This document shows positions 15,637 to 25,105 of a DNA stretch of 46,734 nucleotides, piece after piece. Location: positions 1-46,734 of the IMG/VR virus record IMGVR_UViG_3300009168_000024; one strand, 5' to 3'. This stretch comes from a virus. The notes below the pieces were generated by a model. It did not search any database, had not been told where the DNA came from, and saw nothing but the letters and a program-made list of their open reading frames with translations. Numbering within the stretch: the first letter of the stretch is position 1; each line of letters begins with the position of its first letter. The position numbers and the translations under genes are program-made.

Positions 15637-16152
15637 ATGAGCCTGTTCGAAGCCCAGCCTCGGTCGACCATCGAGGACGGCAACTACGTCGCCACGGTGC
15701 GCAGCGCCGAGCGCGACGTCATCACCCCGCGCAAGGGCCGCAACGCTGGCAAGGACGTCGATATCGTCCGCTGGACGTGGTACCTCGACGAGGTGCAGGA
15801 GGACGTCGAGTCCATCACGGGCATCGACCCCACCTCCGAGAAGTCCAACCTGTTCAGCGTCCTCGTGGCGCTGGTCGGCACCAATCGTGACGCGTGGCTC
15901 GCTCTGACGCCACCGGAACTGGTCGGTCGCAAGGCGCTGGTGCAGGTCACCAACGACGCCGACGGTTGGCCCAAGGTCACGTCCGTGACCGCTCTCCCCA
16001 AGGGCATGCGCCCTCCGGCCCAGCCGGTCGGTGCCCCCGTGGGCTCGCCGGTCGCCACGACCGTCCCGGTCGAGGTCACCGAGGCCCCCATCGCGGAGGC
16101 CGTGCAGGCGACCCTCGTCCCGGCTGATGCCGAGGACGACCTGCCCTTCTAG
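15637..16152 (+). CDS. Single-stranded DNA-binding-like protein
   Basis: 171 residues. The N-terminal part (IEDGNYVATVRSAE...) alternates hydrophobic and charged residues like an OB-fold beta-barrel and includes WTWYL at about 47-51. A Pro/Val/Ala-rich flexible linker spans about 130-160, and the protein ends in the acidic tip DDLPF. That layout (fold, disordered linker, acidic DDxPF tip) is the hallmark of bacterial and phage SSBs, whose tip recruits replication partners. It is the first gene of the early block and is followed by a hairpin terminator and the primase-helicase gene. A non-SSB OB-fold protein with a similar tail remains possible. Confidence 0.65.
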   Translation: MSLFEAQPRSTIEDGNYVATVRSAERDVITPRKGRNAGKDVDIVRWTWYLDEVQEDVESITGIDPTSEKSNLFSVLVALVGTNRDAWLALTPPELVGRKALVQVTNDADGWPKVTSVTALPKGMRPPAQPVGAPVGSPVATTVPVEVTEAPIAEAVQATLVPADAEDDLPF

Positions 16153-16163
16153 GCGGGTACAGC

Positions 16164-16203
16164 AGAGCCCCCTCATCGGCTTCGCAGCAGGTGAGGGGGC
16201 TCT
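16164..16203 (+). terminator. Rho-independent-type terminator after SSB-like gene
   Basis: A perfect 12-bp stem (AGAGCCCCCTCA with TGAGGGGGCTCT) and a 16-base loop begin 11 bases after the stop codon and are followed by a short T-run. It may insulate the SSB-like gene from the primase-helicase gene or attenuate between them. Confidence 0.75.
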
Positions 16204-16369
16204 TTGCGCGTCGGACATCACCCCAACGCTCTGGCTGCAGGGCCGAGGAGAACCGTGTTCACCACCCCGCATCCACACTCCAGACCATATCAGAACCGGC
16301 GTAGACTGCGTAGTCCCTGCGAGAGGACGCTCGTCACGCGGCTCCGCATCCGAGGAGTTCCTGTACATC
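16204..16369 (+). promoter_or_regulatory. Leader of primase-helicase gene with candidate -10
   Basis: 166 noncoding bases after the terminator. A TAGACT at 16302-16307 is a plausible -10 element; no convincing -35 is visible. GAGGAG at 16352-16357 is the ribosome binding site for the ATG at 16370. An open frame runs in from upstream (from 16031), but it lacks a separate signal and overlaps the SSB-like gene. Confidence 0.35.
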
Positions 16370-18673
16370 ATGCCAGATGAGGATGAGTTCCGCCCGGTCC
16401 GCGATATCGCGGCAGAGGCGGAGGTGGTCGACGATGTCGTCGAACAGACCACCGCCCGGCTGGAACAGAACCGAGCCCAGCAGGACGACACCAGCAAGTA
16501 CCCGGCCATGCTCGCCGCCCTCGGCCTCGCCGCCATCGGGTGCGCCATCATCCCGGTCCAGACCCACAAGAAAGACCCGCTCATGGGCAAGCGGTGGGAG
16601 GAGACGGCCCGGACGTACCCGCAGACGTTCCTGCGCAACCCGGGCACCCTGAACTACGGCGTGCTGCCCCCTCCGGGCTGCGTCATCCTCGATGTCGACG
16701 GCGACAACCCGGCGTGGATGGCCGAACTGGCCCAGACCCTCGGCCAACTGCCCGAGACGCGCATCCACGCCTCTCCCAACGGCCAGCACTGGTTCTTCCG
16801 GTGGCCAGACACCCTTCCCCGCCCTTCCGGCCCGTGGTGGGGCCGTGTCGTGGCTCGCTGGCCGTACGGTGACGACGGTCAGGGCTACGTGGTCGGCCCG
16901 GGCTCGCAGGTCAAGCAGCCGGACGGGTCCATCAAGGCGTACAGCGTGCTGTGGGACGAGCCCATCGCCGACCTGCCCCTGTCGTGGGCCGAGAGCGTCC
17001 TTGCGTACCGGCCACCGCGTGCGGTGCCGACCCCTGAGGGGATGGACTGGGACGCAGCGGGAGGTGAGCCGTACGTCCTGCCCGAGTCGGTGCATGAGGG
17101 TGGCCGGTACGACAGCATCGTGCGCTACACCGCACATCTGTACAACCAAGGGCTGTCGATTGCTGAGATGGCCGAGAAAGTGCGCGACGAACTGGTCCCA
17201 CGCTGGACCAAGCCCAAGTCGCAGGCCGAACTGCGCGGTGACTTCCGGCGTGCGACCAAGGACATGGTCGACCGGCTCGGCCCACCGGCCCACGTCCCGC
17301 TGCCCGGCGGCATCGTGCCCGGGTCGCTGCTTGACCCCACGAGTCAGTCCGACGAAGCGTCGGTTGAGCCCACGACACTTGACACGGGAGCGTACGCTCA
17401 GGACTCGCCGACCGTACAGGCGAGTCCTGAGCGTACGAACACGGTTGACCCCACGCCCCTGTTCGGCGCACCATCTCAAGGGGCTCCTGCCGCTGTTTCC
17501 CCCGAGCCAGCGGCGGTCGAGCCCCCGTTCTTCGAACGTGGTGACGTCCTCGCCGACCGGCTCCGGGCGATGGGCCCGGTCCCGTACCTGCTCGACGGTC
17601 TGGTCACGTCATCCGGCCTGAACCTCATCGGTGGCCACCCGAAGTCCGGCAAGTCGCTGGCGGCGCTGCAGATGCAGGCAGCATGGGTCATGGGCGGCGA
17701 CTTCCTCGGCCACGCCGCCGACCAGCGCGGGCACCGCGTGGCCGGGTACGTCACGCAGGAGGGCTCGCGTGACCTCATGCGTGAGCGTCTGGACCGGCTG
17801 TACGCCGCCCATCCGGGCATGGACGCCACGGGGCGCTTCCTGACCGCCTTCCTCAAGCCGCTCCTGTTCACGAAGGAGGGCTACGCCTTCATGGCCGAGC
17901 GCATCTCGGCCATCGAGTCCGAGTACAGTGCCCGGCCCGGCCCGCTCGACCTGTGGCTGACCCTCGACCCGCTCCGTGACTTCATGCCGTCCGGTGCCGA
18001 CGAGAACGACGCCAAGCACATGGCCGAGGTCAAGCGGTGGTGCCGCACGCTGCTGTCCGAGTTCACGTTCCTGTCGTTCACGGTCGTCCACCACCTGCGC
18101 AAGGCGGCGAACGGCGACACCGGGCTGGAACTGTCCGGCTCGGGGGCCACGTACGCGATGACTGACTCGACGCTCACGTGGAAGGCCAAGAAGAAGGACG
18201 AGGACGAGTACGACGACACTGGCTTCCTGCGTACGCGTCGACCGCTGCGTGGGACGTACAACATCGAGTCGCGCGGTGGTGAGCCGAGTGGTGGCCCGTG
18301 GCGCTATGACCAGCACAGTGGCCTCATCGTTCCCGACAACCAGCGCGAGACGGACACCCTTGGCCGCTCACAGCCCGGCGAGACGCAGCGCACCGTCTAC
18401 GACCTCCTGCTCGACGCCGGTGGTCGCGGCATCACCGGCCCCGAGGTCAGCGCCCTCTTCCCCGAACTGACCCCGGCGGCAGCCGGTGCCGCCCTTCTCC
18501 GGCTGTACAAGGACGGCAAGGCCGACCAGACCGGCGATACCACCAGTGGTGGCCGTGGCAACGCCAAGCGGTACTACGGCAGGGGCTGGAGCCCGGCGAA
18601 TGACCCGGCTGGGTTGGTGCCGCCGGACGAGTCCGAGGACTTCACCCCGGACCCCCTGCATCCGGTCGACTGA
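16370..18673 (+). CDS. Bifunctional primase-polymerase / RepA-like helicase
   Basis: 767 residues. The N-terminal archaeo-eukaryotic primase-polymerase fold (about 50-250) has the catalytic DVDGD with Asp 108 and Asp 110, SPNGQHWFFR with His 140, and VVGPGSQVK. A low-complexity linker follows (about 300-385). The C-terminal RecA-like helicase (about 395-640) has Walker A GGHPKSGKS at about 421-429 and Walker B WLTLDP. A winged-helix-like tail is at about 655-705 (TGPEVSALFPELT). It would prime and unwind DNA at the phage origin; iteron-like repeats lie just downstream. No other DNA polymerase gene is present, so either the host polymerase or this PrimPol must extend DNA. The start was chosen for its GAGGAG site. 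Confidence 0.88.
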   Translation: MPDEDEFRPVRDIAAEAEVVDDVVEQTTARLEQNRAQQDDTSKYPAMLAALGLAAIGCAIIPVQTHKKDPLMGKRWEETARTYPQTFLRNPGTLNYGVLPPPGCVILDVDGDNPAWMAELAQTLGQLPETRIHASPNGQHWFFRWPDTLPRPSGPWWGRVVARWPYGDDGQGYVVGPGSQVKQPDGSIKAYSVLWDEPIADLPLSWAESVLAYRPPRAVPTPEGMDWDAAGGEPYVLPESVHEGGRYDSIVRYTAHLYNQGLSIAEMAEKVRDELVPRWTKPKSQAELRGDFRRATKDMVDRLGPPAHVPLPGGIVPGSLLDPTSQSDEASVEPTTLDTGAYAQDSPTVQASPERTNTVDPTPLFGAPSQGAPAAVSPEPAAVEPPFFERGDVLADRLRAMGPVPYLLDGLVTSSGLNLIGGHPKSGKSLAALQMQAAWVMGGDFLGHAADQRGHRVAGYVTQEGSRDLMRERLDRLYAAHPGMDATGRFLTAFLKPLLFTKEGYAFMAERISAIESEYSARPGPLDLWLTLDPLRDFMPSGADENDAKHMAEVKRWCRTLLSEFTFLSFTVVHHLRKAANGDTGLELSGSGATYAMTDSTLTWKAKKKDEDEYDDTGFLRTRRPLRGTYNIESRGGEPSGGPWRYDQHSGLIVPDNQRETDTLGRSQPGETQRTVYDLLLDAGGRGITGPEVSALFPELTPAAAGAALLRLYKDGKADQTGDTTSGGRGNAKRYYGRGWSPANDPAGLVPPDESEDFTPDPLHPVD
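17391..17437. repeat. Perfect 19-bp inverted repeat inside primase-helicase linker
   Basis: Arms 17391-17409 and 17419-17437 are exact reverse complements separated by 9 bases. It encodes about residues 340-356 of the interdomain linker. It is flanked by near-identical CGGTTGA(G/C)CCCACG segments on either side (about 17361 and 17445). Confidence 0.9.
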
Positions 18674-18674
18674 T

Positions 18675-18730
18675 GCGCTAAACCCCTCACCTCGGCCCCC
18701 TATAGGGGGGGGCCGTGAGGGGTTTAGCGC
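18675..18730. repeat. Long nested hairpin after primase-helicase gene
   Basis: Outer arms GCGCTAAACCCCTCAC and its exact reverse complement (18675-18690 and 18715-18730) enclose an inner GGCCCCC/GGGGGCC stem with a TATA loop. The result is an almost continuous stem of more than 20 bp. It starts 2 bases after the stop codon and contains one iteron copy in each arm, so it could be both terminator and origin element. Confidence 0.85.
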
Positions 18731-18835
18731 AAACCCTTCGTCGTTCCGCACGTGAGGGGTTTCGTTCGTGCTTGTGAGGGGTATGTGAGGGGTTTCGTGA
18801 GGGGTTAGGGCTGTTGGGTTTCGTGAGGGGTTTTC
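18715..18835 (+). other. Candidate replication origin: six GTGAGGGGT iterons
   Basis: Direct copies of GTGAGGGGT begin at 18715, 18752, 18774, 18785, 18797 and 18823, plus an inverted copy at 18682-18690. Several spacings are 11, 12 or 22 bases, close to whole helical turns. Most copies extend to GTGAGGGGTTTCG. Clustered, phased iterons next to a primase-helicase gene are the classic architecture of a replication origin recognised by a Rep or primase-type protein. Transcription-factor sites are the main alternative. Confidence 0.6.
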
Positions 18836-19245: not shown

Positions 19246-19764
19246 ATCAGCCACCCCGAGCGTTGAGGAAACGGGGTCGAACTCGCGGCGAACAGGCTCC
19301 TCGGAGCCGATGAAAGAACCGGGCGAGAGTCGACAACAGGTGACTGAGCCAGACCGAACGGAGCGCACACGAGGCAGGGGCCACGACCTAAGTGGAACCA
19401 CCCGATGCCGAGCGCGAGACTCCCCTGCAAGACGACCTGCTGACGGCGACCGAACCAACGGTCCAACGGCGCAGGGCCGGACACTGGGGTCGGACGGACC
19501 ATGAGAGCGAAAGACCCGAACGGGCCGCTGCACCATCGCCAGCACGGATACCGGCAACGACGACCGGAACGTGACAGCCGAGAGGCTGAGATGAAGCGGG
19601 CTCCAAGTAGGCCCCCGGCACCAGCCGGGAAGTAGCCCTGAGCAGGCCGATTGCAAGGCCGCTCCGAGTAGCCCCCACCCCGGGGTCCAGCCGCACGAAC
19701 ACCATCACCATCCCGATGGAGCGACCCTGCTGGAGCCGGTGCGTGGGCCGAACCACCGATGGTC
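19246..19764 (+). ncRNA. Large structured noncoding RNA leader (about 520 nt)
   Basis: This stretch has no plausible gene but is dense in perfect local hairpins with small loops. Examples are GGCTC-CTCG-GAGCC at 19295-19308, a GACCG/CGGTC stem at 19448-19463, GGTC/GACC at 19488-19500, CAGCC-GAGA-GGCTG with a GNRA loop at 19575-19588, and CCCGGC-ACCA-GCCGGG at 19614-19629. Three AGTAGSCCC-like segments alternate with hairpins between 19594 and 19665. Joining regions are purine-rich with repeated GAA/GCGA elements, as in large ornate phage RNAs such as ROOL or GOLLD; membership in either class is not established. It starts at the promoter and would end at the predicted hammerhead cleavage site after 19764, giving a defined 3' end. 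Role unknown. Confidence 0.55.
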
Positions 19765-19810
19765 GCCGGGATGCATCACCCGGCCTGATGAGCCCACAGA
19801 GGGCGAAACC
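19761..19810 (+). ncRNA. Candidate type III hammerhead ribozyme (short stem III)
   Basis: All catalytic-core elements are present in order. GGT then C17 at 19764 (predicted cleavage after it) is followed by stem I GCCGGG/CCCGGC (19765-19770 with 19779-19784) and CTGATGA at 19785-19791. Stem II GCCC-ACAGA-GGGC (19792-19804), GAA at 19805-19807, and ACC at 19808-19810 pairing with GGT complete it. Stem III has only 3 bp. A competing type II fold pairs GTGGGC (19743-19748) with GCCCAC (19792-19797), but it lacks one A of the conserved GAA-A and needs a bulged C. Cleavage would separate the upstream structured RNA from the small-gene mRNA. Confidence 0.55.
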
Positions 19811-19824
19811 TAGGAGAACCACCC

Positions 19825-20085
19825 ATGGCCACCATCCGAACCATCCGAACCGTCCGCCCGGCCTACACCGAGAGCGAGGCGTTCGCCGTCGCCGAGGCCC
19901 TGAACACGCAGGCCGTCGCCATCCGAACCCGGATGCTGGAGACGGAGCATCGTGCCAAGAACCACCGCCTCAATGGCCGCGACACGGCCAGCGACATCGT
20001 CCTGCAGGAACTCCCTCTGCTGACCGCACGGCTCAACGCCGTGAACGCCGCTCGCATCGCTCTGGCCGATGCCATGAACGTCTGA
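19825..20085 (+). CDS. Small helical protein of ribozyme-flanked operon (86 aa)
   Basis: Unrecognised protein with a Thr/Arg-rich N terminus (MATIRTIRTVRP) and then two predicted helices (ESEAFAVAEALNTQ, and ITxR to the C terminus) with heptad-like Leu/Ala/Ile spacing. No Cys/His pairs or membrane segment. TAGGAGAACC lies 5 bases before the ATG. The gene sits between two hammerhead candidates; the last base of its TGA stop is the first paired base of the next ribozyme, so terminating ribosomes may affect ribozyme folding. Function unknown. Confidence 0.75.
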   Translation: MATIRTIRTVRPAYTESEAFAVAEALNTQAVAIRTRMLETEHRAKNHRLNGRDTASDIVLQELPLLTARLNAVNAARIALADAMNV

Positions 20086-20140
20086 GCCGAAACCCCGAGA
20101 GGGGTCGTTCCGACCTGACCGCCCGGAGCCTGATGAGGCT
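20085..20140 (+). ncRNA. Type II hammerhead ribozyme
   Basis: Complete consensus. Open stem II pairs AGCC (20085-20088) with GGCT (20137-20140). Then come GAA (20089-20091) and stem III ACCCC-GAGA-GGGGT (20092-20105) with the required A15.1-U16.1 pair. C17 at 20106 precedes the predicted cut before G20107. Stem I pairs GTTCCG (20107-20112) with CGGAGC (20124-20129), including one G-U, and CTGATGA lies at 20130-20136. The order of elements is that of bacterial and phage type II hammerheads. It lies in the gap between two small genes and would split their shared mRNA. Confidence 0.88.
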
Positions 20141-20170
20141 AGGTCACCGCATCACCGAGGAGAACGCCCC

Positions 20171-20419
20171 ATGGCGCTCATCTACCCCAGCAACGTCCAG
20201 CCGTTCGCCAACCGCTGGGCGAACCGTGCGGACTACCGTGCGGCCTACGCCGCTGACCAGCCGGACGACCGGTGGGTCGTCGCGGCGAACGGCGACGAAG
20301 TCCCGTTCCTGCGCCAGAACCGCTGGTGCATCCGGGTCTGGAACCCGCGCACCGTCACCCACGGCATCCTCGACATCGGCACGGACATCGTGACCGACGA
20401 GACGAACCCGTGGGACTAG
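20171..20419 (+). CDS. Small hypothetical protein (82 aa)
   Basis: Compact, Trp-rich protein (about five Trp) with a mix of beta-prone segments: DRWVVAANGDEVPF and RWCIRVWNPRTVTHGILDIG. The spacing suggests a small beta-sandwich or barrel, but no family is recognised. GAGGAGAACGCCCC precedes the ATG. It is flanked on both sides by type II hammerhead ribozymes, so after processing its coding sequence would be carried alone on a fragment of about 360 nt. Function unknown. Confidence 0.75.
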   Translation: MALIYPSNVQPFANRWANRADYRAAYAADQPDDRWVVAANGDEVPFLRQNRWCIRVWNPRTVTHGILDIGTDIVTDETNPWD

Positions 20420-20443
20420 TCGCCATCCCTGTCGCCGGTCCGT

Positions 20444-20497
20444 AGCCGAAACCCCCACGGGGGTCGTCCCGCCTGCCGAGCGGGGCCTGATGAGGCT
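20444..20497 (+). ncRNA. Type II hammerhead ribozyme
   Basis: Second complete copy. Stem II pairs AGCC (20444-20447) with GGCT (20494-20497). GAA is at 20448-20450, and stem III is ACCCC/GGGGT with loop CACG (20451-20464). C17 at 20465 gives a predicted cut before G20466. Stem I pairs GTCCCG (20466-20471) with CGGGGC (20481-20486), and CTGATGA lies at 20487-20493. Compared with the copy at 20085, both stem I strands changed together (TTCC/GGAG becomes TCCC/GGGG). That covariation supports the pairing. It begins 25 bases after the stop of the 82-aa gene. Confidence 0.88.
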
Positions 20498-20519
20498 AGG
20501 CATCACATCGAGGAGAACC

Positions 20520-20840
20520 ATGGCCACGACCATGCGCACCGAGGACGAGGGTGTCCTCAACATCAACACCACGCCGAACGGGCGGGTCCGCCTGTTCGTC
20601 GAGGACGGGTGCGGCGACCGCGCCGTGGTCTACCTGACCGCGACCGAGGCCGAGGCGCTCATCAGCGACCTGCGCCAGCGCATCGCGCCGGTCGAGTCGA
20701 CGCCGGTCCACACCGTCCGTGGTGGCAAGCCTGCCGCCGAGTTCGGGGCGTACGGCGTGCCCCACGACATGGACTGCCCCGGCTGTCAGGGCACGTCGTT
20801 CACCGCATCGCCGCGCAGCGAAGCGTACTGGGCGTCGTGA
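20520..20840 (+). CDS. Small hypothetical protein (106 aa)
   Basis: The ATG at 20520 directly follows an AGGAGAACC site; an in-frame start at 20490 lies inside the ribozyme core and is rejected. The N-terminal half looks like a small beta-rich domain (GVLNINTTPNGRVRLFVEDG) followed by a helix TATEAEALISDLRQRI. The C terminus carries a CPGC pair near residue 90 that could be half of a zinc site, but no partner pair is seen. Its stop overlaps the next start (TGATG), giving tight coupling. Function unknown. Confidence 0.75.
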   Translation: MATTMRTEDEGVLNINTTPNGRVRLFVEDGCGDRAVVYLTATEAEALISDLRQRIAPVESTPVHTVRGGKPAAEFGAYGVPHDMDCPGCQGTSFTASPRSEAYWAS

Positions 20841-21109
20841 TGAGCCGCCGCATCCTCAGGTCATGGACGGTCAACGTCGTCGAGGACGAGCCGTTCACCA
20901 TGCTGACCGTCAAGGACGGCAAGTCGGTCGACACCGGTCGCAGGGCCGTCACGGTCCTGCGCACCAAGGGTGACCGGAACGTGACCCACGCCGCCGACAT
21001 CCCCGAGGGCTGGGACACGCGGTACCACCTGTACTGCCGGGTCGCCCTCGGTCGTCGGGCCAAGTCCGACCCGCTCGGTGCGGGCTACGTCATCCTCCGC
21101 TGCCTCTAG
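20840..21109 (+). CDS. Small hypothetical protein (89 aa)
   Basis: The start overlaps the stop of the previous gene. It is basic and beta-prone (RSWTVNVVEDEPFTMLTV and YHLYCRVALG), with a C-terminal GYVILRCL. Two cysteines are too far apart for an obvious zinc site. No family recognised. It is the last gene of the ribozyme-flanked operon and is followed by a multi-stem RNA element that may end the transcript. Confidence 0.7.
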   Translation: MSRRILRSWTVNVVEDEPFTMLTVKDGKSVDTGRRAVTVLRTKGDRNVTHAADIPEGWDTRYHLYCRVALGRRAKSDPLGAGYVILRCL

Positions 21110-21121
21110 ACCCCACCGCCT

Positions 21122-21196
21122 TGTGCCCTGACCCTGCCGAACCGGCAATGGCATGACCCAACCGACACGGGGGCGTCCCCGAGGGGTCAGGGCACA
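21122..21196 (+). ncRNA. Three-way-junction RNA element or terminator
   Basis: A perfect 13-bp closing stem (21122-21134 with 21184-21196, TGTGCCCTGACCC and its reverse complement) encloses two perfect 5-bp hairpins. These are TGCCG-AAC-CGGCA (21135-21147) and CGGGG-GCGT-CCCCG (21168-21181), joined by a 20-base linker. No T-run follows. It could terminate or protect the 3' end of the small-gene transcript, or be a cis-acting regulatory RNA for the downstream AAA+ gene. It does not match the hammerhead core. Confidence 0.6.
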
Positions 21197-21277: not shown

Positions 21278-22819
21278 GTGGCGAACATCGCAACCAACCT
21301 CAAGGACGGCCACGTCTGGAAGAGGTCATCCCGCCCGCTGGTCGGGCGGGCCATCGGCTACGGCCCACACGCCGTCATCTACCGCGACGCCGCCGGGGAG
21401 ATTGAACTCCAGCGTGGCAGCACGGTGCTGGCCAAGACGGACGGTGACAAGTACCGCCTGTTCCTGAACAACATGTGGGCTGCCGACCCGAACGCGGTGC
21501 CTGCAGTCAAGGCCGACCCGGTCATCCCGTACGTCAACAAGTTCCTCGGCACGTACGGCAAGGTCGAGACGTACTGGCGCACCAAGGAACTGCGCTTCGT
21601 GCCGGGCAAGAACGCGCCGCTGCTTGCGGCCACGCCGGTGGTCCGCACCGAGCAGGTCACGCCGCTGGCGGCAGTGTCCGGCACGGTCGCGGCGAGCAGC
21701 GCCATCCAGCAGGCTGCGGTCGAGGCCGAGGCCGAGCGCCGTGCGCAGGCTCAGGCCGCGCTCGACGAGGCCAACCGCATCGAGGATGCACGCATCGAGG
21801 CGCTGCTCCGCGAGGAGCAGGCTGCCAAGGCACGTGCCGATGCCGAGGCGCAGGCCGAGCGTGAGCGACTGGCTGCGATGGCCGCGCAGCATCCGACCGT
21901 TCCGCTCACCGGTGTCACGCACTCGGTCATCGAGGGCATCGACATGACCACGCTGCCGGGTGGCATCGCGGTCGAGGCACGGCACACCCGGACCATGGTC
22001 GACGGCGTGGCTGCAAGGCTGCGCGATGACATCGCTGCGGTCCTCATCACCGGTCCGTCGGGCACGGCCAAGACGATGCTCGTCCGGTCGTTCGCCAAGG
22101 CCGCTGGCCGTGACCTCATCACGGTGCAGGGTGTTGCGGTCACCGAGGCTGCCGATTGGTTCGGCCAGACCATCCTCGATGGCAACGGCACGCGCTACGT
22201 CCTCTCCCCGTTCGGTCAGGCACTGGCCGATGGCCGGGGCGATGTCATCGTCCTGCTCGACGAGGCCAACCGGGCTGCGTCACCTGCCGCGCTCAACGCG
22301 GTGCTGTCGCTGCTCGACGGGCAGCGTGAGGTCTACGTGCCGGGCTACGGCACGCTGCGCCTGCCCAAGGGCATGCTCGTCATCGTCACCGCCAACGTCG
22401 GTGCGGAGTACGTCGGCACGGTGCCGTTCGACGCCGCAGTGCGCCAGCGGTTCAGCCTCGGCATCAAACTCGACTACCCGGTCGAGTCGGTCGAGGTCGA
22501 CATCCTCATGAGCCTCGCCGGTATCGGCAAGCCCACGGCCCAGCGCATGGTGCGCATGGCCAACCAGCAGCGCCCGCTCAAGACGGACATGGTCCAGTTC
22601 CCGAGCGGGACCGGCCTCTCGACCCGGATGCTGGTCGATGCGGCCACGCGCCACGCCCATTCGGGCACCGACCTCCGCGAGGTGCTGGTCGGCCTGTTCG
22701 ACGCACAGTTCGACCCCGAGGACATGAAGGCCCTCGGCATCATCCTCGACCAGTACTTCCCGGCTGGCGGCAACGCCACGCTGCCGGTCGACACCCAGAA
22801 CGTGGACGAGGCGGTCTAG
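21278..22819 (+). CDS. MoxR/CobS-type AAA+ ATPase
   Basis: 513 residues. The N-terminal domain (1-130) is unrecognised. A charged Ala/Glu/Arg coiled coil spans about 145-210. The AAA+ core (about 235-440) has Walker A GPSGTAKT at about 257-264, Walker B VIVLLDEANRA at about 325-335, sensor 1 VIVTANVG at about 370, and an arginine-finger-like AAVRQRFS at about 390. The LDEANRA and P-loop style are those of MoxR, CbbQ and CobS ATPases, which remodel partners through VWA-domain proteins. An HExxH protein and a VWA protein follow, so a three-part machine is likely. The GTG start has GAGGAGAAC upstream. Substrate unknown. Confidence 0.85.
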   Translation: MANIATNLKDGHVWKRSSRPLVGRAIGYGPHAVIYRDAAGEIELQRGSTVLAKTDGDKYRLFLNNMWAADPNAVPAVKADPVIPYVNKFLGTYGKVETYWRTKELRFVPGKNAPLLAATPVVRTEQVTPLAAVSGTVAASSAIQQAAVEAEAERRAQAQAALDEANRIEDARIEALLREEQAAKARADAEAQAERERLAAMAAQHPTVPLTGVTHSVIEGIDMTTLPGGIAVEARHTRTMVDGVAARLRDDIAAVLITGPSGTAKTMLVRSFAKAAGRDLITVQGVAVTEAADWFGQTILDGNGTRYVLSPFGQALADGRGDVIVLLDEANRAASPAALNAVLSLLDGQREVYVPGYGTLRLPKGMLVIVTANVGAEYVGTVPFDAAVRQRFSLGIKLDYPVESVEVDILMSLAGIGKPTAQRMVRMANQQRPLKTDMVQFPSGTGLSTRMLVDAATRHAHSGTDLREVLVGLFDAQFDPEDMKALGIILDQYFPAGGNATLPVDTQNVDEAV

Positions 22820-24235: not shown

Positions 24236-25105
24236 ATGACCACCAACGCCGAGCGTGGAGCAGCGATGACCCACGCCGTCAGGCTCGCCTTCCAGCGAGC
24301 AGCCGTAGCCCCCACGAACTGGAAGCATCAGGTCAAGTCGGGCCGGGTCGACGCTCGCCGCGTCACCCGGCTGCGCACCAACGGCAGCATGGACATCTTC
24401 CGACAGCGCGTGCTGCCGGGTGCCACCAAGGTCAACGTCCACGTGCTGGTCGATGGCTCGTCGTCGATGTCGACCGGCGGGGACTCGTTCAACCCGAACC
24501 GCATCACGCAGGCTCGTGACGTGGCCGAGGTACTGGCCGATGCGTTCGTGTCACACCCCTCGGTGCGGCTCAACATGTGGCTGCACAACAGCGGTGGTCC
24601 GACCGACCTGCAGGTGCTGAACGTGATGCGTGACAGCAAAGGCCGGGAGAACATCGCGGCCATGCCTGCCGCCTGTCAGGGTGGCAACGGTGACGGCTAC
24701 GTCCTGCGCTGGATGGGTGACCTCATCCGCAAGCAGCACCGCAACGACGAGGTCGACCTCGTGTTCATCATCAGCGACGGCTCGCCGTCGTGGATGCCAG
24801 CCGACCTGCGGACGCAGGTCCGGGTCGACATGAATGCCATGTACCCCGAGGGCAGTGGCAAGCGTGACTCGCTCGACGTGCGTGGCATCAACGTCCGCGA
24901 CACCGTCATCAACATGCGCCTGCAGGGCACGCACGTCGTGTCGGTGGCCATCGCCCCCAACGATGCGCAGGTGCCGATGTACGGCAAGGACTACGTGGTC
25001 CCGTTCAGCGGTGACTGGAACCGACTGGCCGTGGACTTCGGCAAGACGCTCGGCACCGTGCTGGCTACGGCCAGTGCGGTGGCGGCGAAGGGGGCACGGC
25101 GATGA
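24236..25105 (+). CDS. VWA (MIDAS) domain protein, partner of AAA+ ATPase
   Basis: 289 residues. The von Willebrand A domain starts at about 64 with the metal-ion-dependent adhesion site DGSSS (Asp 73, Ser 75, Ser 77), preceded by hydrophobic strand VNVHVLV. A second MIDAS-like ISDGSPSW lies near 182-189. The N-terminal 60 residues are basic. VWA proteins of this kind bind MoxR-type ATPases through the MIDAS and act as substrate adaptors. With the upstream AAA+ and HExxH genes it completes a CobS/CobT-like triad. A 4-base overlap couples it to the next gene. Confidence 0.85.
   Translation: MTTNAERGAAMTHAVRLAFQRAAVAPTNWKHQVKSGRVDARRVTRLRTNGSMDIFRQRVLPGATKVNVHVLVDGSSSMSTGGDSFNPNRITQARDVAEVLADAFVSHPSVRLNMWLHNSGGPTDLQVLNVMRDSKGRENIAAMPAACQGGNGDGYVLRWMGDLIRKQHRNDEVDLVFIISDGSPSWMPADLRTQVRVDMNAMYPEGSGKRDSLDVRGINVRDTVINMRLQGTHVVSVAIAPNDAQVPMYGKDYVVPFSGDWNRLAVDFGKTLGTVLATASAVAAKGARR

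Follow-up and report, generated by a model that had tools for sequence, protein, structure and literature searches.

Hammerhead ribozymes at the gene junctions of a phage operon and a tRNA-like element in their place in other phages

The locus and its genes

The analyzed stretch of DNA, hereafter the window, comprises 46,734 nucleotides of the IMG/VR record IMGVR_UViG_3300009168_000024. It contains portal, primase-polymerase and exonuclease genes, and judging from these hallmarks it can be marked as the DNA of a tailed phage. A search of INPHARED with two window genes found no protein-level kin in any phage, and DNA and protein searches for kin of the window phage retrieved a single near-identical contig (L003/L026), which belongs to the same population. 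The locus of interest is a row of small genes, whose proteins (genes 1, 2 and 3) are without a family match in Pfam or PHROGs. Each of these three genes, starting at 19825, 20171 and 20520, is preceded by a hammerhead motif, and the resulting array of three hammerheads spans 742 nt, all on the plus strand (Table 1). The earlier note on this DNA recognized the two copies in front of the genes at 20171 and 20520, both of which are indeed present, but missed the one at 19761-19810. Cleavage is predicted after C19764, C20106 and C20465 and would release a 342-nt RNA with gene 1 and a 359-nt RNA with gene 2, while the RNA 3' of the C20465 cut would comprise gene 3, the overlapping gene 4 and the sequence beyond.

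Table 1. Coordinates of the hammerheads and small genes in the window.
Feature	Position	Strand	Details
Alternative type II-like fold of the third hammerhead	19743-19797	+	6-bp stem II GUGGGC/GCCCAC, 4-bp stem III
Third hammerhead, type III form	19761-19810	+	Intact CUGAUGA and GAAA; predicted cut C19764/G19765
Small gene 1	19825-20085	+	86 aa; Shine-Dalgarno AGGAG 19812-19816; stop overlaps stem II of copy 1
Type II hammerhead copy 1	20085-20146	+	Core and stems 20085-20140, pseudoknot strand 20142-20146; predicted cut C20106/G20107
Small gene 2	20171-20419	+	82 aa; Shine-Dalgarno AGGAG 20158-20162; alone between two predicted cut sites
Type II hammerhead copy 2	20443-20502	+	Core and stems 20443-20498, pseudoknot strand 20499-20502; predicted cut C20465/G20466
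Small gene 3	20520-20840	+	106 aa; Shine-Dalgarno AGGAG 20511-20515
Gene 4	20840-21109		Start overlaps the stop of gene 3

Three further features were observed in the neighborhood of the row. Directly after the primase-polymerase gene (16031-18673), the interval 18674-18832 contains five copies of GTGAGGGGTT and one inverted copy (0.07 expected) together with a palindrome with arms of 29 nt, and the whole looks like an iteron-type replication origin or an operator array. Just 3' of gene 4, at 21122-21196, 13 perfect base pairs close three inner hairpins (z -3.7); Rfam holds no match for this fold, which is a candidate for a terminator or an unknown structured RNA. Downstream of the hammerhead row, genes for a MoxR/CbbQ-type AAA ATPase and a CobT-like protein (21278-22819 and 24236-25105) lie close to each other.

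Two type II hammerheads

Copies 1 and 2 were described in the earlier note as type II hammerheads with every core base, and this is what a strict type II pattern retrieves from the window: two matches, namely these two copies, against an expectation of 0.00. Both contain the type II core (CUGANGA, GAA, the A15.1-U16.1 pair and H17) in the type II layout with an open stem II and closed stems I and III. In copy 1, stem II pairs A20085-C20088 with G20137-U20140 (4 bp), GAA (20089-20091) is followed by a 5-bp stem III (20092-20096/20101-20105) with a GAGA loop and by C17 at 20106, and stem I (20107-20112/20124-20129, 6 bp) leads into CUGAUGA at 20130-20136. The equivalents in copy 2 are a 5-bp stem II (20443-20447/20494-20498), GAA at 20448-20450, a stem III of 6 bp (20451-20456/20459-20464) or of 5 bp with a 4-base loop, C17 at 20465, a 6-bp stem I (20466-20471/20481-20486) and CUGAUGA at 20487-20493. 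The 6-bp stem I proposed for both copies and the new 5' ends predicted at 20107 and 20466 are accordingly correct. The covariation that was claimed for stem I is real, but it amounts to one compensatory pair (U-A to C-G).

The earlier note overlooked that loop I forms a pseudoknot with the 3' tail, which provides, as in most type II hammerheads, the tertiary contact of stems I and II in both copies. In copy 1 the strands of this pseudoknot are UGACC (20116-20120) and GGUCA (20142-20146), in copy 2 UGCC (20474-20477) and GGCA (20499-20502), and the two versions differ by one base pair that has been gained or lost on both strands. The loop I/tail pseudoknot is required for fast cleavage (Perreault et al. 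2011; PMC3088659). The window copies share this pseudoknot, the core, the open stem II and the closed stems I and III with the Rfam type II family RF02276, but differ from it in that stem II is longer (4-5 bp) and loop I measures 9-11 nt.

The statistical evidence comes from several sources. A relaxed type II descriptor found three matches among 2500 shuffles of the whole window. The covariance model R1, for which 60 hammerheads were taken from other phage contigs and the window population was excluded, scored copy 1 with 42.6 bits (E 2.3e-10) and copy 2 with 47.1 bits (E 1.2e-11). The Rfam type II search that had been proposed as a check matched both copies as well (22.1 bits, E 9.3e-4 for copy 1; 33.6 bits, E 9.3e-7 for copy 2; record-wide), but neither reached the gathering score of 37 bits, which is a database cut-off and not a structural definition, the structural features being all present. 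Folding energies are uninformative for the window hammerheads (MFE z-scores -0.9, -0.5 and 0.0). At the level of sequence, copies 1 and 2 are confirmed as genuine type II hammerheads with predicted self-cleavage.

A third hammerhead in front of gene 1

The third element shares the stem order, the core and the closed stems I and II with type III hammerheads, and its stem III is open. The stem I hairpin (19765-19770/19779-19784, 6 bp) and UC lie upstream of the sequence CUGAUGA-GCCC-ACAGA-GGGC-GAAACC, in which 19792-19795 and 19801-19804 form stem II, whereas two deviations from type III are a stem III of only 3 bp (19761-19763/19808-19810) and the presence of an alternative type II-like fold. 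The exact motif is expected 0.01 times in the window, and the type III descriptor found three matches among 2500 shuffles. Rfam provided no type III match for this element at E up to 10, and model R1 scored it with 19.5 bits (E 0.0012) in the type II-like register. The type II-like fold is about 5 kcal/mol more stable than the type III fold (-25.1 versus -19.9 kcal/mol). An intact type II ribozyme was nevertheless rejected as the identity of the third element, because CGA occupies the position of the core GAA in this register, and the alternative fold is expected to be inactive. Stems III of 3-4 bp are also found in the type III junction hammerheads of four other phages (L208, L217, L228 and L234), and the third hammerhead is therefore probably functional, with a certainty below that of copies 1 and 2. 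In the interval 19743-19810, what appears to be a remnant of a type II 5' segment precedes a 3' segment of type III that is intact, and the element may be an intermediate of circular permutation or a switch between two states.

The Rfam scores under the gathering threshold and the weak stem III of the third hammerhead are what one would expect if the window hammerheads were inactive relics or chance motifs. Intact cores, covarying pseudoknots, nearly empty shuffles, the exact placement at junctions on the coding strand and the high scores of the independent model R1 are all at odds with this explanation, which we regard as the least probable of those considered here.

Number, placement and structure of phage hammerheads

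Similar elements, whose stems all show covariation, are present in hundreds of phage loci, and two narrow patterns run over viral contigs retrieved 73 and at least 120 stretches. One example of a serial arrangement is a viral contig with up to nine hammerheads on one strand within 8.5 kb (L004), and model R1 counted 8, 9 and 12 hammerheads in the cultured Streptomyces phages Hank144, Diane and Salutena, respectively. Together with the prophage clusters published by Perreault et al. (2011; PMC3088659), these counts document that hammerhead rows are common in phages. The assumption of the earlier note that a serial, gene-by-gene arrangement is unusual is hence contradicted both by the report from 2011 and by the up to 12 copies per cultured Streptomyces phage genome.

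The placement of the hammerheads was investigated with a set of 236 distinct elements, which were thinned to 125 clusters according to how similar their 1-kb surroundings are. In 74 of these 125 thinned hammerheads, the longest open frame upstream ends between -3 and +6 nt from the 5' end of the type II stem II; when the positions were displaced by 300 or 600 nt, the same stop window was occupied in 4-6 of 104-122 cases (about 4-5%). Downstream, a start with Shine-Dalgarno sequence lies 0-39 nt beyond the 3' end of the hammerhead in 92 of 125. Among type I hammerheads, whose 5' strand belongs to stem I, the stop is found at -2 to +1 from the 5' end in 9 of 14, thus indicating that the stop adjoins the 5' edge of the ribozyme and not stem II as such. 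In the deposited gene calls of Hank144, Diane and Salutena, 19 of 20 hammerheads are located between annotated coding sequences and none on the other strand; the distances between stop and hammerhead are looser in these three phages, with several copies 15-44 nt away. The core UGAUGA doubles as the stop codon of the upstream gene in 4 of 125 cases. Of the 46 thinned loops that measure 6 nt or more, 34 form a pseudoknot of at least 4 bp with the tail of the same element, compared with a mean of 10.4 and a maximum of 18 after permutation. The possibility that the ribozymes accompany a particular cargo gene was rejected, since 93 downstream proteins share no constant family; the downstream genes are of no constant kind, and the function is therefore not tied to one product.

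The contact between stop codon and ribozyme raises the question of whether translation controls the cut. In copy 1, the final base of the gene 1 stop (TGA 20083-20085) is the first base of stem II, as had been pointed out in the earlier note; this overlap turns out to be a general tendency in phages (74 of 125), but within the window it is a property of copy 1 only. A terminating ribosome could cover the 5' strand of the ribozyme, so that heavy translation of the upstream gene would delay cleavage, light translation would permit it, and the cut would report or adjust upstream translation. Such gating would agree with the stops that abut or overlap the 5' end in most phage hammerheads, of type II as well as type I, and with the overlap in copy 1. 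The compactness of the genome alone could, however, place a ribozyme directly after a stop without any coupling to translation, copy 2 begins 23 nt past the stop of gene 2 (20417-20419), and the more distant copies of the Streptomyces phages likewise fit it poorly. We consider both the gating and its proposed dependence on the rate of translation to be unlikely, if less so than the other alternatives.

The proximity of the next Shine-Dalgarno sequence has a corresponding implication, namely that cleavage might activate the downstream gene, the upstream strand lost with the cut being one that otherwise masks the Shine-Dalgarno sequence or start of this gene. The predicted accessibility of this region is 0.41 before and 0.55 after cleavage in copy 2, but it is unchanged in copy 1 (0.35 to 0.36) and changes little for the third hammerhead. 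Over 94 phage hammerheads the median change is 0.004 in a fold model without pseudoknots, for which reason unmasking was rejected as a general mechanism; for the window it is very improbable.

Hammerhead cleavage leaves a 5'-OH and a 2',3'-cyclic phosphate, ends that can be ligated. With two cuts flanking gene 2, the 359-nt segment could be excised and circularized by the ribozyme itself or by an RtcB-type ligation in the manner of viroid-like and retrozyme RNAs. The survey speaks against such a scenario, because 140 of 174 sampled phage locus strands carry a single hammerhead copy, and because the spacing within multi-copy loci varies from 204 to 3998 nt, so that a unit circle is not preserved. 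Spliced or circular products were moreover sought and not found by Perreault et al. (PMC3088659), and we give circularization even slightly less credence than unmasking.

Exchange with a tRNA-like element

Other phages harbor a different structure at their gene junctions. It is a tRNA-like element of 40 nt in which an acceptor stem (5 bp) and a T-arm (6 bp) are joined by a linker of 11 nt, e.g. ACCGGCAGACA, and which is followed by ACU; the T-arm loop reads UUCGAGU/C, GGCA in the linker resembles a tRNA D-loop, and a CCA end is absent. Standard pairing is seen throughout its 11 pairs (231 of 231 cells), and both partners of a pair have changed in 41 instances, against 10.4 after shuffling. The element is recognized neither by ARAGORN nor by Rfam, whose closest tRNA-like match for two short stretches was a mascRNA fragment (E 3.7), and it appears to be undescribed. 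Seven to ten copies per genome are located at gene junctions of the Likaviruses Rana, Danzina and South40 and of the Camviruses Verabelle, Dexers, phiScoe15 and Amela, and the element is also present in the loci L251, L252, L254 and L255-L302. It follows stop codons within -3 to 25 nt in 153 of 201 cases (about 8-15% at shifted positions) and precedes a start with Shine-Dalgarno sequence within 70 nt in 175 of 201 (18-29% at shifted positions). It mimics the minimal substrate of RNase P and RNase Z and is a probable target of one or both enzymes. A scan of the window provided no convincing tRNA-like element (best E 0.25).

The distribution of both elements was compared, with a model for each, in 17 cultured phages of the Arquatrovirinae. 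Ten of them contain 8-12 hammerheads and no tRNA-like element, and the other seven contain 7-10 tRNA-like elements and no hammerhead. Given the kinship among the Streptomyces phages, this split may reflect few evolutionary events; a relatedness of these phages to the window phage was not detected. The viral contigs exhibit the same separation, with tRNA-like elements in 0 of 100 hammerhead loci and hammerheads in 1 of 48 tRNA-like loci. This one locus, on a metagenomic phage contig (L267:3080-5962), harbors a row of four hammerheads followed by one tRNA-like element, each of which precedes an RBS module of the GUGAGAGG type.

The junction upstream of an OCR-like antirestriction gene illustrates the exchange. 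It is occupied by a hammerhead in members of Janusvirus, Arequatrovirus, Celiavirus and Caelumvirus and by the tRNA-like element in Likavirus members and the Camvirus Verabelle; three other Camviruses (Dexers, phiScoe15 and Amela) have a short gap without either device. Protein comparison established that the OCR gene is preceded by either device and that the upstream gene is orthologous in Hank144, Paedore and Rana. Both devices were also found on both sides of the orthologs Hank144 gene 75, Rana 73 and Verabelle 620, and in front of orthologous acetyltransferase genes and the pairs Hank144 68/Verabelle 610, Hank144 77/Verabelle 621 and Paedore 82/Rana 75.

The hammerhead and the tRNA mimic are without common sequence or structure, and both would cut RNA. 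Since such unlike devices stand in for one another at the same junctions, their function is probably to cut the RNA there, and this would include the window hammerheads. The exchange is in our analysis the best evidence for this role, with the cutting of the tRNA-like element remaining putative. We lean toward the view that phages punctuate their operons with interchangeable RNA-cutting devices, which are swapped at orthologous junctions between stop codon and Shine-Dalgarno sequence, and that the array of the window belongs to the ribozyme form.

A side aspect concerns the neighboring genes. Either device lies upstream of the OCR-like antirestriction gene (e.g., L198:7413-7922) in most Streptomyces phages examined, and ardA behind hammerheads was noted by Perreault et al. 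(2011; PMC3088659). Anti-restriction genes thus recur beside hammerheads.

Proposed mechanism

The claim of the earlier note that junction hammerheads would split a shared mRNA gains support from their structure, the position statistics and the tRNA-like exchange, and we consider it quite likely that the three predicted ribozymes of the window divide the phage operon into one-gene RNAs. As the polymerase passes, each hammerhead would fold and cut the nascent transcript after its own C17, so that the operon would be converted into the two one-gene RNAs of genes 1 and 2 and a remainder beginning with gene 3. The upstream piece of a type II cut would end soon after the stop codon in the stem III hairpin and a 2',3'-cyclic phosphate, and a 5'-OH and the hairpin of stem I would form the beginning of the downstream piece, whose own Shine-Dalgarno sequence follows some tens of bases later. 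The likely use is that each gene would obtain its own mRNA with its own stability, uncoupled from its neighbors. Sequence, structure, covariation, position, recurrence and the exchange in other phages form the basis of this scenario, from which we infer cleavage, fragment stability and the benefit for the phage.

Relation to known systems and significance

The marking of transcript cuts by intergenic structures is known from the tRNA punctuation of mitochondrial transcripts and from mascRNA-type tRNA-like signals. The mark in the window differs from these in being a self-cleaving ribozyme, and the tRNA-like version, with putative cutting, is found in other phages. Tandem prophage hammerheads cleave in vitro, those of Agrobacterium tumefaciens also in Escherichia coli (PMC3088659), and Perreault et al. 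(2011; PMC3088659) proposed for clustered prophage hammerheads a processing into operon- or gene-length mRNAs. The clusters of Clostridium scindens, Azorhizobium caulinodans and A. tumefaciens (Fig. 3 in PMC3088659) likewise flank single genes or short blocks. What distinguishes the present case is the new phage, and the placement between stop codon and Shine-Dalgarno sequence, the copy numbers and the tRNA-like exchange did not turn up in a search of that paper's main text. The rule of placement, the copy numbers and the exchange are also absent from the literature searched, which covered few subscription journals and no bioRxiv-only work. A row of hammerheads is hence already known, and the exchange with a tRNA-like element is the chief point that is new to us.

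The role of phage hammerheads has been a standing question since 2011. The gap from the stop codon to the next Shine-Dalgarno sequence provides a search rule for further elements of this kind, and the question is testable, on laboratory hosts, in cultured Streptomyces phages that carry the ribozymes (Hank144, Paedore, Salutena) or the tRNA mimic (Rana, Danzina, Verabelle). The exchange of the two devices argues that their role would be the cutting of the transcript itself and nothing peculiar to the ribozyme.
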